Positions 33,522 through 41,376 of a stretch of 64,000 bases of DNA are shown piece after piece; the stretch's first letter is position 1, and each line of letters begins with the position of its first letter. The DNA lies in contig JAQXLA010000015.1 of NCBI GenBank assembly GCA_029011315.1, forward strand, positions 1 through 64,000, given 5' to 3'. The position numbers and the translations under genes were made by a program. This stretch comes from Desulfovibrionaceae bacterium. Lineage in GTDB: Bacteria; Desulfobacterota; Desulfovibrionia; Desulfovibrionales; Desulfovibrionaceae. The notes under the pieces are model-generated. The model had not been told where the DNA came from, did not search any database, and saw only the letters and a list, made by a program, of their open reading frames with translations.

Positions 33522-34323
33522 CTCTGTCCTCCTGACGAAGCATACGGCGCAGAGAAATACCGGGCATTCCCTTTTCCATTAATGAAGATCCCACGAGAGC
33601 CGCATCGTATCCGGCATCAGCCGCATCCCGCAAATCCTGATTGGAGCGCATGCCGCTGGCGGCAATCCAGAGCTCTCCGCGTTCTGGGGGGCAGCTCTGA
33701 ATCAGCTTCAGACAGGCAGTGCGGTCAACGTGCAAGGTCTCCAGATCTCTGGCATTGACCTGAATGATATCGGCACCGCTTTCCCGTGCCAAATTCAAAT
33801 CCTGCTGATTGAAAACCTCTGTCACGCACTGGACTCCGCCGCGTTCAGCCTGCTCACGCAGGGATCTCAGAAGCCGGACATCCGGAGTCAGCCGTACAAT
33901 GAGCAACAGGGCGGAAGCCGGCGTCGCAATCGTTGCTGCAATCTGCACAGGATGCAAGATAAAATCCTTGCGCAACAGAGGTATCAATGCGCCTGTTTTG
34001 GAAAAATGGCTGGAGATCCGCTCCAAAAAAGCGATATCGCCGTGAAAATACTGTCGTTCCGTGAGAACGGACATGGCAGATGCACCTGCCTGAGCGTACT
34101 GAGAGGCGGTTTCCTCCGGGCTCAAGCTTTCACAGATGACTCCGCGGGAAGGCGAAGCCCGTTTGTATTCCGCAATGACAGCTGGAAGCCCGTTATGTGC
34201 TCCTTTTTTCAGAGCTTCGCGGAAGTCCGGCCGAAAGCCTGTATAGGGCTGCGGCAGAACCTCTGCACAGAGAAGCGCCTTGATTTCCGCTTGTTTGGCT
34301 TCATGAAAGCGTGCGAGATCCAT
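33511..34323 (-). CDS. trpC: Indole-3-glycerol phosphate synthase
   Basis: TrpC closes the indole ring from CdRP. The product is 270 residues, one TIM barrel. VIAEYKRASPSRGVI holds the first catalytic Lys, PLLRKDFILHPVQI the second, and IIQVNARDLETLHVD is also typical. It is separate from trpF, unlike the E. coli fusion. Its start codon shares one base with the trpGD stop (TGATG). Confidence 0.97.
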   Translation of the reverse strand: MDLARFHEAKQAEIKALLCAEVLPQPYTGFRPDFREALKKGAHNGLPAVIAEYKRASPSRGVICESLSPEETASQYAQAGASAMSVLTERQYFHGDIAFLERISSHFSKTGALIPLLRKDFILHPVQIAATIATPASALLLIVRLTPDVRLLRSLREQAERGGVQCVTEVFNQQDLNLARESGADIIQVNARDLETLHVDRTACLKLIQSCPPERGELWIAASGMRSNQDLRDAADAGYDAALVGSSLMEKGMPGISLRRMLRQEDRDAC

Positions 34324-35909
34324 CAGGCCAACACCCGACTTCCTGCGCCTTCCAGAACGCCTCGGCGTGCCTTGGCGACAGCTTCTTCCAGACTGACGGA
34401 TCCGTCTTCCAGAAGGAAGACGGCAAATCCGGCATTCAAGGCGATCATGTCCTGCATGGCTTTGGGACCGTTGCCGGACAGAAGATCGCGCAGAATCTGC
34501 ACAGCTTCCTCCTTTGTATGAACTTCCAGATCCTCGGGACTGCAGGGGGAGAAGCCGAACGACTGCGGATCGACAATCATTTCATCCCTTTTTCCGTCAG
34601 AAATCAGGATGACGCGGTTTTTCCCCATGCAGGTCAGTTCATCGTATCCTCCGGCTCCATGGAATACCGCAATGCGGCGGATGGGACGCTGTGAAAGGGC
34701 TCCGGCAACCAGTTCGACGGCATCAGGAGATCCGACGCCCATCATGAGGTGATCAGGGCAGGCCGGATTGATCATTGGGCCGAGAATATTGAAGATGGTT
34801 CGGATTCCAAGCTGTTTGCGGACAGGCGCGATGTTGGCAAAAGCCGGATGGAAATAAGGTGCGAACTGAAAGGTAAAGTTTGTGCGCCTGAGAGCGTCAA
34901 GAATCGCTTCGGGATCTCTTTCCAGTTTCATTCCCAGGCCTTCAAGAGCATCTGCAGCCCCGGATGTGGAGGAAACAGCTCTGTTGCCGTGCTTGACACA
35001 GCGGTATCCCATTCCGGCAATTGTCAAGGCCGAAGCGGTAGAGCAGTTAAAGGAATGCTTGCCGTCGCCTCCGGTACCGACGATATCAATGCAGTGCTCG
35101 GGAATATCCCGGACGCGTACGGCGTGATCCAGCATGACGTGAATGGCTGCGGCGACTTCCTGCGGTTTTTCCCCTTTCATCCGCAGAGCCGTAAGAAAAC
35201 TTCCGGCCTGTGTGGGAGACATCGTGCCGTCAATCATGGCATTAAAGGCTGCCTCTGCCTGTTCAACCGTTAGATCGCGCTGATCAGCCAAAGTATTGAG
35301 AATAGACGTTACGGATGGAATTTCTGCGGCGGGCATAATATTCTCCGGGAAGTTTTTCAGCAGTTTCAGGCCGTCTGGTGTCAAAATGGATTCCGGATGA
35401 TATTGAACTCCAACCCATGGGCGATCTTTATAGCGCATGGACATTACTTCTCCCTGCGGTCCGCGCGCTGTTACTTCCAGATTGCTGTTGGGATGTTGTT
35501 CGTCGATACGGACGACAAGAGAATGGTAGCGCCCCACGGTCATGGGATTGGGTACGCTGCGGTAAAGCCCCCTGCCGTTGTGCACGATATCAGATGTCTT
35601 GCCGTGCATGATGACCGGTCCGCGCACCACTTCGGAACCGGCGAAAAGGCCGAGCACCTGATGACCGAGGCAAACGCCGAGCACGGGGATGCGGGGGCTG
35701 AGACGGCGGAGAAATTCCATGCAGAAGCCCGCTTCAGAAGGATGTCCGGGACCGGGAGAAATACATACGGACTTCAATCTGGGATCCGTAGCCATGGCAA
35801 CAAGTTCGGGATCGTCATTTTTTATGACAACAGGCTGTTTGCCGAGACGGCAGAATGCCTGCACCAGATTGTAGGTAAAGGAATCATAGTTATCGATGAG
35901 AAGGAACAT
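34323..35909 (-). CDS. trpGD: Anthranilate synthase glutaminase fused to anthranilate phosphoribosyltransferase
   Basis: One 528-residue protein carries two steps. Residues 1 to about 190 are the class I glutaminase (starts MFLLIDNYDSF; nucleophile Cys in GVCLGHQVLG; His in VQYHPES), which feeds ammonia to TrpE. The remainder is the phosphoribosyltransferase TrpD (VGTGGDGKHSFNCSTASA, KHGNRAVSSTSGAAD). The fusion has the same order as in E. coli. The start at 35909 overlaps the end of trpE by 20 bases. Confidence 0.97.
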   Translation of the reverse strand: MFLLIDNYDSFTYNLVQAFCRLGKQPVVIKNDDPELVAMATDPRLKSVCISPGPGHPSEAGFCMEFLRRLSPRIPVLGVCLGHQVLGLFAGSEVVRGPVIMHGKTSDIVHNGRGLYRSVPNPMTVGRYHSLVVRIDEQHPNSNLEVTARGPQGEVMSMRYKDRPWVGVQYHPESILTPDGLKLLKNFPENIMPAAEIPSVTSILNTLADQRDLTVEQAEAAFNAMIDGTMSPTQAGSFLTALRMKGEKPQEVAAAIHVMLDHAVRVRDIPEHCIDIVGTGGDGKHSFNCSTASALTIAGMGYRCVKHGNRAVSSTSGAADALEGLGMKLERDPEAILDALRRTNFTFQFAPYFHPAFANIAPVRKQLGIRTIFNILGPMINPACPDHLMMGVGSPDAVELVAGALSQRPIRRIAVFHGAGGYDELTCMGKNRVILISDGKRDEMIVDPQSFGFSPCSPEDLEVHTKEEAVQILRDLLSGNGPKAMQDMIALNAGFAVFLLEDGSVSLEEAVAKARRGVLEGAGSRVLA

Positions 35910-37335
35910 ACTGATCTCCGGAAAGTGTGCATACCTTGCGCATGATGGCCGATTTGTTTCGGACTTCCTTCCATTCCAGGGCAGGATTGGAATCAAAGAC
36001 AATGCCGGATCCGGCCTGCCAGTTCAGCTTGCCGTCTCGAACCCACATGCTGCGGATGGTAATGCCCGTATCGAGATGAACGCTGTCTTTATCCAGACCG
36101 ATCCAGCCGATGCATCCTGCATAAGGTCCGCGGGGAAGGCGTTCTGTCCGTGCGATAATTTCCATAGCGCGCAGCTTGGGTGCGCCGCTTACGGTTCCTG
36201 CCGGAAATGTTGCTGCCAGAACATCCATCGCGTCCAGTCCGTCACGAAGTTCAGCTGTGACATTGCTGGTCAGATGCATGACATGGGAAAAGCGTTCTAC
36301 GGCCATTAAACTGTCGACATTGACGCTGCCTGGCTTGGCCAGACGGCCAAGATCGTTGCGTCCCAGATCAACGAGCATCATATGCTCCGCCCGTTCCTTG
36401 GGGTCGTCAAGCAACTCTCTGGCCAGTCTTTCGTCTTCTTCTGACGTATGGCCTCTTCGCCGCGTACCGGCGATGGGAGCTGTAAGAAGTCTGCCGCCGG
36501 TGCAGCGAACCATGACTTCGGGAGAAGCTCCGAACAGAGTGATGTCAGGAAAGCGCATGAAAAACATGTAGGGAGAGGCGTTGTCGCACCGCATGCGGCG
36601 GTACAACGTGATGGGGTCGCTGTCAAAAGGCATGCTGAAGCGGGTTGATGGCACAACCTGAATGGCTTCACCGTTGCGGAGCATTTCCCGAATCGCGTCG
36701 ACAGCGGCCATATAGCCCGCACCGTCCGGGGTGGACTGAATAGAAGATTCGTCAAGGGGAGCGTTGTTTGCGAGACTTTCCGTATAGAATTCCGATGAAT
36801 GTGCGCCGAAGACCGGGGCATGTCTGCCAAGACTGACCTGTGCCAGCTTATTGTAAAGATGGTCAAACAGCATCAGCGTGCCAGGAAGGCAAAGCGTGCA
36901 TTCCGCTTCTTCGGGAGGAAGAACAGATGACAGCTTGCTGTTAAACAGTCCTGCCATGCCGAATCCGAAATAGCCGCAGAGCGAACGCGTAATGGGAGGA
37001 AGATCCGCATAGAGGGAATCGGGCAGAATATCGAGATTTCGCATCACTCCCCGAATGCCTTCGACAAAAGGCAGACCGTTGAAGCAGGACAGAGGCCTAA
37101 GCCTGTCATCTTCGATGCGGAGTTCTAACAGACCCTGTTTGCAGGACAGCGTTAATGCCATATCGCAGGCTAGAACGCTGTATCGTCCCCAGCGTCCGTC
37201 AACTTCAGCACTTTCCAGAAGAATGCCGGTTTTGTTTTGGGCCATCCCCATAAACAGACTTATGGGCGAATCCATGTCCGCTGGAAGCCAGCGGACATGC
37301 TGCCTGAGTCGTATGGGAAATTTTTGTGTATCCAT
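35890..37335 (-). CDS. trpE: Anthranilate synthase component I
   Basis: TrpE converts chorismate to anthranilate. The product is 481 residues. The chorismate-binding core has PIAGTRRRG, EHMMLVDLGRNDLGR and TFPAGTVSGAPK. Near the N-terminus is GILLESAE, matching the LLES element that binds tryptophan for feedback inhibition, so this is TrpE rather than PabB or an isochorismate synthase. It is the first structural gene of the operon, with AAAGGA before its start, just after the leader terminator. Confidence 0.97.
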   Translation of the reverse strand: MDTQKFPIRLRQHVRWLPADMDSPISLFMGMAQNKTGILLESAEVDGRWGRYSVLACDMALTLSCKQGLLELRIEDDRLRPLSCFNGLPFVEGIRGVMRNLDILPDSLYADLPPITRSLCGYFGFGMAGLFNSKLSSVLPPEEAECTLCLPGTLMLFDHLYNKLAQVSLGRHAPVFGAHSSEFYTESLANNAPLDESSIQSTPDGAGYMAAVDAIREMLRNGEAIQVVPSTRFSMPFDSDPITLYRRMRCDNASPYMFFMRFPDITLFGASPEVMVRCTGGRLLTAPIAGTRRRGHTSEEDERLARELLDDPKERAEHMMLVDLGRNDLGRLAKPGSVNVDSLMAVERFSHVMHLTSNVTAELRDGLDAMDVLAATFPAGTVSGAPKLRAMEIIARTERLPRGPYAGCIGWIGLDKDSVHLDTGITIRSMWVRDGKLNWQAGSGIVFDSNPALEWKEVRNKSAIMRKVCTLSGDQYVPSHR

Positions 37336-37352: not shown

Positions 37353-37385
37353 AAAAAAAATACCGTCCCCGAAAGAGGACGGTAT
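37353..37385 (-). terminator. trp leader terminator (attenuator strands 3 and 4)
   Basis: Read leftward, ATACCGTCC (37385-37377) and GGACGGTAT (37368-37360) form a 9-bp stem with an 8-base loop, followed by seven T, 18 bases before the trpE start codon. Strand 3 can instead pair with strand 2 (37432-37443). Confidence 0.85.
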
Positions 37386-37412
37386 TTGATGATATCTTTT
37401 CTTCTTATGGTA

Positions 37413-37502
37413 TCAGTCTACGCACAAAGACCGCATCCTCTTCTTTATGAAGGGGATACGCCACCACTGGATACCAAAAAAATTGCATACGAACGCTTGC
37501 AT
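37413..37502 (-). CDS. trpL: trp leader peptide with tandem Trp codons
   Basis: This is a 29-residue open frame from an ATG at 37502, preceded by GGAG at a normal distance, running to a TGA at 37413. It contains two adjacent Trp codons (residues 13-14, in GIQWWRIP; TGGTGG at 37466-37461). A ribosome stalled there would cover strand 1 (37460-37449) and leave strand 2 (37443-37432) free to pair with strand 3, so the downstream terminator could not form. The position between a promoter and trpE, the codon content and the alternative pairings all fit ribosome-mediated attenuation. The peptide itself is expected to have no other role. Confidence 0.85.
   Translation of the reverse strand: MQAFVCNFFGIQWWRIPFIKKRMRSLCVD
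37432..37460 (-). promoter_or_regulatory. trp leader 1:2 (pause/anti-antiterminator) hairpin
   Basis: Read leftward, CGTATCCCCTTC (strand 1) pairs with GAAGAGGATGCG (strand 2) around ATAAA, with one mismatch and one G-U pair. Strand 1 begins directly after the second Trp codon. GAGGA and CGGT of the strand 2 region (to 37429) can alternatively pair with ACCGTCCTC of strand 3, with a two-base bulge. Confidence 0.75.
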
Positions 37503-37528
37503 ACTAATAACTCCAAAAGTATGTAAAA

Positions 37529-37557
37529 TACATAGTCGATTTCGGATAGGTCGTCAA
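37529..37557 (-). promoter_or_regulatory. Predicted trp operon promoter
   Basis: Read leftward, TTGACG (-35) lies 17 bases before TATGTA (-10). Transcription would begin near 37522, giving a leader of about 170 bases to the attenuator. A perfect inverted repeat, TATGTA-AAA-TACATA (37520-37534, plus strand), covers the -10 box and could be an operator. Confidence 0.5.
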
Positions 37558-38627: not shown

Positions 38628-41345
38628 TTAGTTCTTTTTCCTCATCCGTTTTGGCTTTTCAGGTTGAGCAAGTTTTTCCTGCTCAATCAGCTTTTCATAG
38701 CGATTCAGAAGATCGGCTACGATCTTTGGTTCGGTTATATTGGAAGGAAGACCGTATAGAGACAAAACGGCGACATCAAGTTTTTTGTGTGCCTTGAGTA
38801 GGTCGGAAGGTGTAAACAAAGGGTCATACAGGTCGGCAAGTGACCTATCAGCGTATCGGTTGCGGATATCAAGAATTTGTTCAGACAACGTTTCAACGTT
38901 GGTCCTTTGTTCGTCTGTCACGTTTTCAGGCCAAGGGAAATTATTATACACAATATCCTTGGAGTAACGGTAACGCATTTCTAAACGACCGGCTATTACC
39001 TTCATCCAAGCCATATGAACGATAGAACTAAGAACCCCAAAATGATAGTGACTGGCGTTGGCGATAATCTGTATCTGATTTGTAGGTATAGTATCCTTAT
39101 CAAAGTAACACATTGGCAAATATGTTCTTCTTTCTGAAGATACCATAGGTAACGCAATATAAAATTCAGGATTATTGGTATCTCTGAAAGTTGTCGGCCT
39201 GTCTGCCAATTTCTGAGTTCCTTTGTCTTTCATAGAAAGACGATTTTTCCTACAAAGTTCCACACGTCTCAACACTTCTTTGTTTGCTTTGATTTCGGAG
39301 GGAGAAGCGTCAACGAGCCACAAAACATATCTCTTTTCGTTATGTAAGAGTTCACGACCGCCAATTAGACGCTTTATATATTTGAAGTCTCCAAATTTAT
39401 CTATATCTTCACATTCAATTTTAAGAGCATCACCGTCAAGAGGAACATTGCCATTCTTCATTTGTGGAACATCACAAATAGGTTTTGAACGAATGTTGAT
39501 ATACACATCTGGAGCATCTATTAGATAACCATTGATATTTGTTGCAGTATTAGCATTACCAATTTCATCATAGATAGTCTTATTAATATTATTGTAAAAA
39601 CTATATCCAATAATGACACAATGAACGGCGGCTTTTTCCTTTGCTTCATTACTCCATTTGAATGTTTTATATGCATAGTTTATGATAATGCCATTATTAT
39701 TAAGTTCATTCCACAATGCTTGAACTTGTTCTCCCTGAGAAATAGAATTAGTTGCAACAAAGCAAGTTTTGATTGCTTTGTTTTGAAGCATAAAATGATA
39801 TGCCTTTTTAAACCAGCAACAAACATAATCTATATCTTTGTATTCAAAATATTGAGCGACCTCTTTTATTTGTTCTTCTGTTCTATATCGTCTTCCAAGA
39901 AACGGAGGATTACCGAAGATATAAGACAACTCCGAGGAAGGAACAACGTCATTCCAGTCTATTCTCAGGGCATTGGCATTAACGATAGAGGCAGACTGTT
40001 TCAGAGGCAAGCGTGCAAAATATTGTCCGAATTGCTCCGATACTTTCATGTTCATCTGATGGTCGATGAGCCACATGCCGACTTGCGCGACCTGGCAGGG
40101 GAACTCCTCAATTTCTATGCCGTAGAACTGCCCTACGTTGACCTTCACATAGGGAGAGATATCTATAACACGTTGGCGAGTACCAATTTTCATTTTGAGG
40201 ACTTCAAGTTCCAATTTGCGAAGTTCCCTATAGGCAATGATGAGGAAGTTGCCGCAACCGCAAGCAGGGTCGAGAAACTTTAGGGAAGCAAGTTTTGTAT
40301 GGAACTGCTCAAGCTGTAATGGACTGGCCTTCACGCGCTCGAACTCAGCATAAAGGTCATCCATAAACAGAGGATTGATAACTTTCAGGATATTCTCTTC
40401 AGAGGTGTAGTGCGCTCCAAGGTCATGACGTTCCTTTTTATTCATCACACCTTGGAACATAGAACCGAAAATAGCGGGAGAAATATTGTTCCAGTCAAAA
40501 CTGCATGACTCAAGCAGAGTTGCCCTCATTTTGGCGTCAAAGTCCGCAAAATCCAACTTCTCGGCAAAGAGACCACCATTGATATACTGGAACTGAAGCA
40601 AGTCCTGTTTCAGCAAGGATTTCTTCTTGCGTACATCGACTGGCATATTAAGGACTTCAAAAAGCCTTTCCAGACGCGCCGAAAGATTAGAACCATCCTC
40701 ATTTGAGTTCTCTACATAGCTCTGAAAACTTCCCTTTGGGAAAATGCCTGTGTCATCAGCAAAGAGGCAGAAAAGAAGCCTTACAAGATAAACTTCAAGG
40801 CTATGCCCTTCATAGCCGATGGACTCCATAGCGTTATGGAGGGCAGCCATTTTGGAAGCCGCTTTGACATTGACTCCCTGCTGCTTCTCATAGGTTCGTG
40901 TTGTTTCGTAGCCTGCGATATCGGCAAAATGTCTTATATACTTTCTGAGGTCTTTTGTTTTGAAGGAAACTTTTTCTCCAGAAGTTCTTTTGTAGAGAAT
41001 GATATTCTCAAAGTCGCAGACCATGAGAAGACTGGGGATTTCATCGGCCTTTAGATGGATAACGTAATTCTGAAGTTGTTCAAAAGCCTTTTTGAGGTCT
41101 TTCTTTGAACTCTTCATTTCAACGGCGATTTTCTGGGGAAACAGATAATCTATGTAGCCATTGTGATTATCATCGAGAGGGACTTTATATTCAAAAACAC
41201 CGAAAGAAATCAGGTCATCAATCCCAAAGACTTTGAAAAAGTCTCTCAGAAACGATTGGACTTCTGCTTCTTCGCGGTGTGCGGTTTCCCATTTCTTAGA
41301 GAACGTAATTGCTCTTGCCTGAATTTCCTCCCATGAGAGTTGCAT
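38628..41345 (-). CDS. MmeI-type (type IIL) restriction enzyme and DNA methyltransferase
   Basis: This single 905-residue protein should both cut and methylate DNA. The N-terminal nuclease has D66-x9-E76-x-K78 (GYIDYLFPQKIAVEMK), the same D-x9-E-x-K spacing as recalled for MmeI. A helical spacer leads to an adenine methyltransferase with motif I DPACGCGNFL near 357 and catalytic motif NPPF near 476. The remainder should be the target-recognition domain and a helical C-terminal cap. The gene is visibly more AT-rich than its neighbours and has no partner methylase or specificity gene, as expected for this class. The ATG at 41345 follows GAGG; a GTG 12 bases upstream is an alternative. Recognition sequence not predictable by eye. 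Confidence 0.9.
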   Translation of the reverse strand: MQLSWEEIQARAITFSKKWETAHREEAEVQSFLRDFFKVFGIDDLISFGVFEYKVPLDDNHNGYIDYLFPQKIAVEMKSSKKDLKKAFEQLQNYVIHLKADEIPSLLMVCDFENIILYKRTSGEKVSFKTKDLRKYIRHFADIAGYETTRTYEKQQGVNVKAASKMAALHNAMESIGYEGHSLEVYLVRLLFCLFADDTGIFPKGSFQSYVENSNEDGSNLSARLERLFEVLNMPVDVRKKKSLLKQDLLQFQYINGGLFAEKLDFADFDAKMRATLLESCSFDWNNISPAIFGSMFQGVMNKKERHDLGAHYTSEENILKVINPLFMDDLYAEFERVKASPLQLEQFHTKLASLKFLDPACGCGNFLIIAYRELRKLELEVLKMKIGTRQRVIDISPYVKVNVGQFYGIEIEEFPCQVAQVGMWLIDHQMNMKVSEQFGQYFARLPLKQSASIVNANALRIDWNDVVPSSELSYIFGNPPFLGRRYRTEEQIKEVAQYFEYKDIDYVCCWFKKAYHFMLQNKAIKTCFVATNSISQGEQVQALWNELNNNGIIINYAYKTFKWSNEAKEKAAVHCVIIGYSFYNNINKTIYDEIGNANTATNINGYLIDAPDVYINIRSKPICDVPQMKNGNVPLDGDALKIECEDIDKFGDFKYIKRLIGGRELLHNEKRYVLWLVDASPSEIKANKEVLRRVELCRKNRLSMKDKGTQKLADRPTTFRDTNNPEFYIALPMVSSERRTYLPMCYFDKDTIPTNQIQIIANASHYHFGVLSSIVHMAWMKVIAGRLEMRYRYSKDIVYNNFPWPENVTDEQRTNVETLSEQILDIRNRYADRSLADLYDPLFTPSDLLKAHKKLDVAVLSLYGLPSNITEPKIVADLLNRYEKLIEQEKLAQPEKPKRMRKKN

Positions 41346-41348
41346 ATC

Positions 41349-41376
41349 ACGCCTCACTTATATTTGAGCGAGGCGT
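41349..41376 (-). promoter_or_regulatory. Hairpin covering the ribosome site of the MmeI-type gene
   Basis: Read leftward, ACGCCTC and GAGGCGT are perfect 7-bp arms with a 14-base loop. The second arm is the ribosome binding site (GAGG) and ends three bases before the ATG, so folding would hide the site and lower translation. Confidence 0.55.

Follow-up and report, generated by a model that had tools for sequence, protein, structure and literature searches.

The trp operon of a Desulfovibrionaceae bacterium is preceded by an element that, judged by its anatomy, is a ribosome-mediated transcription attenuator with a probability of about 0.9. It lies on the minus strand of a stretch of 64,000 nucleotides, all of which was analyzed and which we call the window. 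A predicted leader ORF has a ribosome site and tandem Trp codons, a terminator stands before the first gene, and genes of Trp biosynthesis lie directly downstream. These parts, their conservation and the coevolution of strands 2 and 3 are supported by the sequence and by comparison. The features are the following.

37529-37557, minus strand: candidate sigma-70 promoter TTGACG-17-TATGTA, with 5/6 matches at -35 and 3/6 at -10
37511-37514, minus strand: GGAG, predicted ribosome-binding site of the leader peptide, 8 nt before the ATG
37413-37502, minus strand: leader peptide ORF, 29 codons plus TGA, from reading of the sequence and the leaders of relatives
37461-37466, minus strand: adjacent Trp codons TGGTGG, the control codons, invariant in an alignment of seven leaders
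37449-37460, minus strand: strand 1, from the fold, starting right after the Trp codons
37430-37440, minus strand: strand 2, partner of strand 1 or strand 3, from the fold and coevolution; G-rich and inside the ORF
37375-37383, minus strand: strand 3, the terminator 5′ arm, partner of strand 2 or strand 4, from the fold and coevolution
37353-37387, minus strand: intrinsic terminator 3:4 with an eight-T tail, from the fold and covariation
35890-37335, minus strand: trpE (PF04715 and PF00425), predicted to be the first gene controlled
34323-36002, minus strand: trpG-trpD fusion gene, ORF as listed (PF00117, PF02885 and PF00591)

The leader ORF runs from the ATG at 37502-37500 to the TGA at 37415-37413 and translates as MQAFVCNFFGIQWWRIPFIKKRMRSLCVD, followed by the stop, with the tandem Trp codons as codons 13 and 14. 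A previous reading made from the sequence only had described a leader of 29 codons with two adjacent Trp codons and a ribosome site, and all of these are present on the minus strand, the peptide itself being a prediction. The leader contains one Trp less than those of its Mailhella relatives. The match to a promoter is weak, at p 0.25 for the window sequence alone. The distance from the -10 element to the Trp codons is 62 nt, as against 67 nt in a Mailhella locus (L102), and TTGACA-17 promoters are found at a similar distance in the relatives with free leaders. At the other end of the element trpE begins with the ATG at 37335, with AAGGA at 37347-37343, and trpGD is followed by trpC, trpF, trpB and trpA (named by translation and order) down to 30892. 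The genome measures 1.49 Mb, and its TrpE is nearest to that of Mailhella, at 76% identity, so that the bacterium is likely to be of the gut type within the Desulfovibrionaceae. Upstream of the leader lies a complete MmeI-type restriction-modification gene (38628-41357, minus strand) with N, helical, methyltransferase, TRD and C domains by Pfam.

Folding of the leader region, suggested with the sequence-only reading as a check, upheld it: the 186-nt leader folds better than 200 of 200 dinucleotide shuffles (z = -4.4). In the minimum-energy fold an outer helix GGTATC/GATACC (37475-37470 and 37414-37409) surrounds the 1:2 hairpin together with the Trp codons, and takes in part of the stop codon. 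The 1:2 hairpin (37460-37432; -13.6 kcal/mol) had been placed directly after the second Trp codon; it is strong in the window (z = -2.7), but comparable significance is reached in only about 10% of leaders. In the 2:3 alternative GAGGA..CGGT (37440-37430) pairs with ACCGTCCTC (37383-37375), the strands proposed before. Within the window this pairing has an energy of -11.0 kcal/mol (z -1.8) and 78% of foreign arms pair better. It is thus not unusually specific, and the evidence for the 2:3 alternative comes from the whole set of loci. The terminator stem occupies 37387-37358, with 13 pairs and a core of -18.0 kcal/mol. The 3:4 hairpin and T tail are present as claimed, although the T run is of eight (37360-37353) rather than seven, and is separated from trpE by 17 rather than 18 nt.

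How readily could such an arrangement arise by chance? The pattern of a WW ORF followed by a terminator recurs once in the 64 kb, at +2245, and because of this the parts alone are weak evidence. The second occurrence adjoins no trp gene, and we judged it to be a chance pattern and not a further attenuator. It does lend something to the view that the trpE-proximal hairpin just ends an upstream transcript or acts as a constitutive barrier, and that its WW ORF is accidental. We regard this as very unlikely. Among the listed ORFs no minus-strand gene ends just upstream of the leader. Moreover, the arrangement recurs before trpE. We examined 101 trpE loci, taken from relatives and from named genomes, and in 80 of them a Trp run is followed by a terminator and then by trpE. 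The distance from the last Trp codon to the terminator is 41-83 nt in 80 of 80 (within a search range of 25-140). The 80 loci comprise 38 freestanding leaders, among them that of the window, and 42 in which the Trp codons belong to tyrA (see below); for a few of the 38, in which the run is loose (WRW, for example), the call may be weak, and among the 21 loci without a call a few (L036, L112 and L125) show the device by eye. The coevolution of strands 2 and 3 described below is also unexpected for an accidental ORF. Position before trpE together with conservation thus makes the window element more than a chance occurrence.

Mailhella and other gut Desulfovibrionaceae, the closest relatives, retain the Trp codons, the strand-2 core and the terminator. 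An alignment of seven close freestanding leaders shows no variation in the codons TGGTGGCG or in TGCGG, the core of strand 2. Pairing in the terminator holds for 98% of cells, both sides having changed at 7 of 12 pairs, a result reached by 0 of 500 shuffles. The 1:2 and 2:3 pairings are kept at 80-84%, with covariation not beyond that of shuffles. Lack of conservation of the Trp codons or of the alternative stems in close relatives had been named as what would count against an attenuator; the alignment gives invariant codons and a covarying terminator instead.

The pairing of strand 2 with strand 3 was compared across the whole set. For all 80 loci the stretch following the last Trp codon was paired with the 5′ arm of every terminator, and row and column means were removed. 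Pairs from the same locus are stronger than foreign pairs by -2.2 kcal/mol, which was equalled in 0 of 5000 permutations, whereas shuffled stretches give -0.0 to -0.8 kcal/mol. The advantage holds within the freestanding leaders, within the tyrA tails (0/5000) and after thinning to 68 loci. Over the 80 loci the comparison supports a 2:3 antiterminator exclusive with the terminator, in line with the earlier proposal of this alternative. In both classes strand 2 starts about 18-19 nt (medians) past the last Trp codon. Its end falls about 12 nt short of the last base of the stop codon in the free leaders, and about at the stop in the tyrA tails. If the ribosome is assumed to cover 12 nt past the A-site codon, strand 2 would start far enough along to be free during a stall on the Trp codons, and would end where a ribosome at the stop hides much of its length. 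For the window, strand 3 is predicted to be unpaired to a fraction of 0.30 when a ribosome is stalled on the Trp codons, 0.88 when one is at the stop and 0.64 when there is none; the contrast between stall and stop is partly built in, because a shorter RNA lowers pairing in any sequence.

From the anatomy of the leader and the well-studied case of E. coli (PMC1183508) we infer the order of events, and with it every dynamic step. The ribosome would follow RNA polymerase and translate the leader ORF. A shortage of charged tRNA-Trp would make it stall at codons 13-14, where it covers strand 1; strand 2, which starts 20 nt further on, would then be open to pairing with strand 3. With 2:3 formed no terminator could form, and trpE-A would be transcribed. 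When Trp is plentiful the ribosome would pass through strand 2 to the stop, 3:4 would pair, and transcription would end 17 nt before trpE. If the leader were not translated, the 1:2 hairpin would favor termination. In the relatives the C-terminal Trp codons of tyrA would form the leader of the same device, of which the window has the freestanding form.

Strand 1 of E. coli trpL contains the Trp codons, and the stop codon is located between strands 1 and 2. The window leader departs from this in two ways: its Trp codons precede strand 1, and its stop codon comes after strand 2. There is no recognizable sequence kinship with trpL, nor does the window genome have a TrpR partner. The short leader ORF, the two adjacent Trp codons, the exclusive 2:3 and 3:4 structures and the terminator before trpE are all shared with trpL (RF00513). 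The sequence-only reading had all parts and their order match the classical mechanism; the parts and their exclusive structures do, but the place of the stop codon does not.

Alternative structures alone do not name the sensor, and in principle the choice between them might be made not by a stalled ribosome but by some other factor that responds to Trp, such as TRAP, a T-box RNA or another RNA-binding protein. A search for TRAP (PF02081) found none in the window genome while detecting the B. subtilis positive control, and the leader gave no match to the T-box or any other Rfam family at gathering scores. TrpR (PF01371) is absent from 58 of 59 genomes, that of the window included, the E. coli positive control being detected. 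The Trp_leader family RF00513 did not match even at E 10. Sub-threshold Rfam scores for PyrR (27.5 of 54 bits) and Phe_leader (18.7 of 55) were judged to be chance or a likeness of shape. With no TrpR, TRAP or T-box found, stalling of the ribosome is left as the sensor. As any such other factor would also leave the invariant Trp codons without a role, we consider its involvement extremely improbable.

At 42 of the 80 loci it is the gene directly upstream that supplies the Trp codons, normally WWW, at its C-terminal end; strand 2, the terminator and trpE follow. This gene encodes a protein of the prephenate dehydrogenase type (PF02153), TyrA, which diverts chorismate into tyrosine synthesis. 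Tails of this kind, such as ...LDIAAGGDLDLLSARASWWWRDKA (L040) and ...GLCAAGDVELLTQKALWWWRASSDKGGP (L017), occur in all six families sampled of the order. The loci concerned are L005, L007, L014, L015, L017-L022, L026, L027, L029-L031, L034, L035, L037-L047, L049, L050, L124, L128, L129, L132-L134, L136-L139, L141 and L142. In six of them (L014, L029, L040, L129, L138 and L141) the stop lies only 6-12 nt past the Trp codons, and strand 2 is outside the ORF. A sigma-70-like promoter signal before the Trp run (p < 0.05) is found in 0 of the 42 tails, as against 21 of 38 freestanding leaders. The window genome has its tyrA on a different contig, within a cluster that resembles aroA-tyrA-aroC-aroK (names from translation), and the tyrA product ends in ...RKVRWWDRQLSECNRG.

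The Trp run could be merely the structural end of the TyrA protein and no sensor at all. TyrAs that are detached from trpE, or lack the terminator, often keep one to three Trp at the C-terminus, so that the WWW motif belongs in part to the protein, independently of the attenuator. Yet at least three Trp are present in 41 of 42 terminator-followed tails compared with about 12 of 26 others (Fisher 9e-7, from a hand tally uncorrected for kinship). The coevolution of strands 2 and 3 within the tail class alone likewise argues against a purely structural role, as does the retention of WWWR by freestanding leaders, where the enzyme is not involved. We therefore hold such a role to be unlikely as the full account. 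A further group of loci (L006, L009-L013, L140 and L156) has tyrA beside trpE with no recognized terminator, their TyrA still ending in WW or WWW; in these Desulfovibrionaceae the switch seems to have been lost.

Probably, then, much of the Desulfovibrionales has a trp attenuator without a leader peptide of its own, in which the ribosome finishing TyrA would act as the sensor. The terminal Trp codons of tyrA would read the supply of Trp for trpE-A and, when Trp is short, would delay completion of TyrA. The freestanding leaders, including that of the window, would be the same device after separation of tyrA and trpE or exchange of the operon.

The history of the two forms can be followed in part from trees. 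In those of TrpE the freestanding leaders mostly form one clade, with the tyrA tails as its sister clade. Two freestanding cases (G008 and G037) nevertheless fall inside the tyrA-tail clade; these placements are moderately supported, and at least three changes are required. The TyrA proteins of genomes with freestanding leaders nest among the attached TyrAs, with moderate support and some long branches. A single break-up of tyrA-trpE as the source of all free leaders was not upheld. Since their TrpE clade stands beside all the attached ones, the main freestanding group may equally well have arisen by lateral exchange of the operon as by such a break-up. Akkermansia and insect-gut-type lineages lie inside the freestanding TrpE clade. 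At seven Akkermansia loci (Verrucomicrobiota; L115, L118, L119, L126, L127, L145 and L155) TrpE belongs to the freestanding clade of Desulfovibrionaceae, and a leader ORF with Trp codons and a terminator are present at similar spacing. By sequence, the trp operon of Akkermansia was apparently transferred together with its switch. A search of plasmid DNA gave no match.

Ribosome-mediated trp attenuation is a known kind of control, to which the window element adds a further case. The use of an enzyme tail as the leader looks like a new variant. In the E. coli rph-pyrE attenuator the full upstream structural gene is the translated leader, and UTP is sensed via the coupling of transcription and translation. 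Both this and the tyrA-tail form use an upstream structural gene as leader, but rph-pyrE does not sense an amino acid through its cognate codons. We found no account of the tyrA-tail form in the open papers searched, though absence there is no proof that it is undescribed. Table 7 of Song et al. 2005 (PMC1173090) holds the nearest mention in print that we found, a line listing a putative attenuator, predicted from a database, in the aroA'-aroB'-aroQ-pheA-aroF-tyrA-[trp operon] cluster of Desulfovibrio vulgaris. That cluster belongs to the same bacterial order and has the same tyrA-trp junction as the tyrA-tail relatives; the passages concerned give no leader peptide, Trp codons, mechanism or role of the tyrA tail as leader.

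In the bacterium of the window, whose 1.5-Mb genome lacks TrpR, no Trp-specific control of the trp operon other than the predicted attenuator was found. More widely, the classic switch occurs both within an enzyme gene and as a mini-gene of its own, and with freestanding G008 and G037 inside the tyrA-tail clade the origin of a leader peptide becomes testable. Akkermansia, a gut bacterium of another phylum, has a related trp operon that carries a switch of this kind, which suggests that operon and switch travel together.
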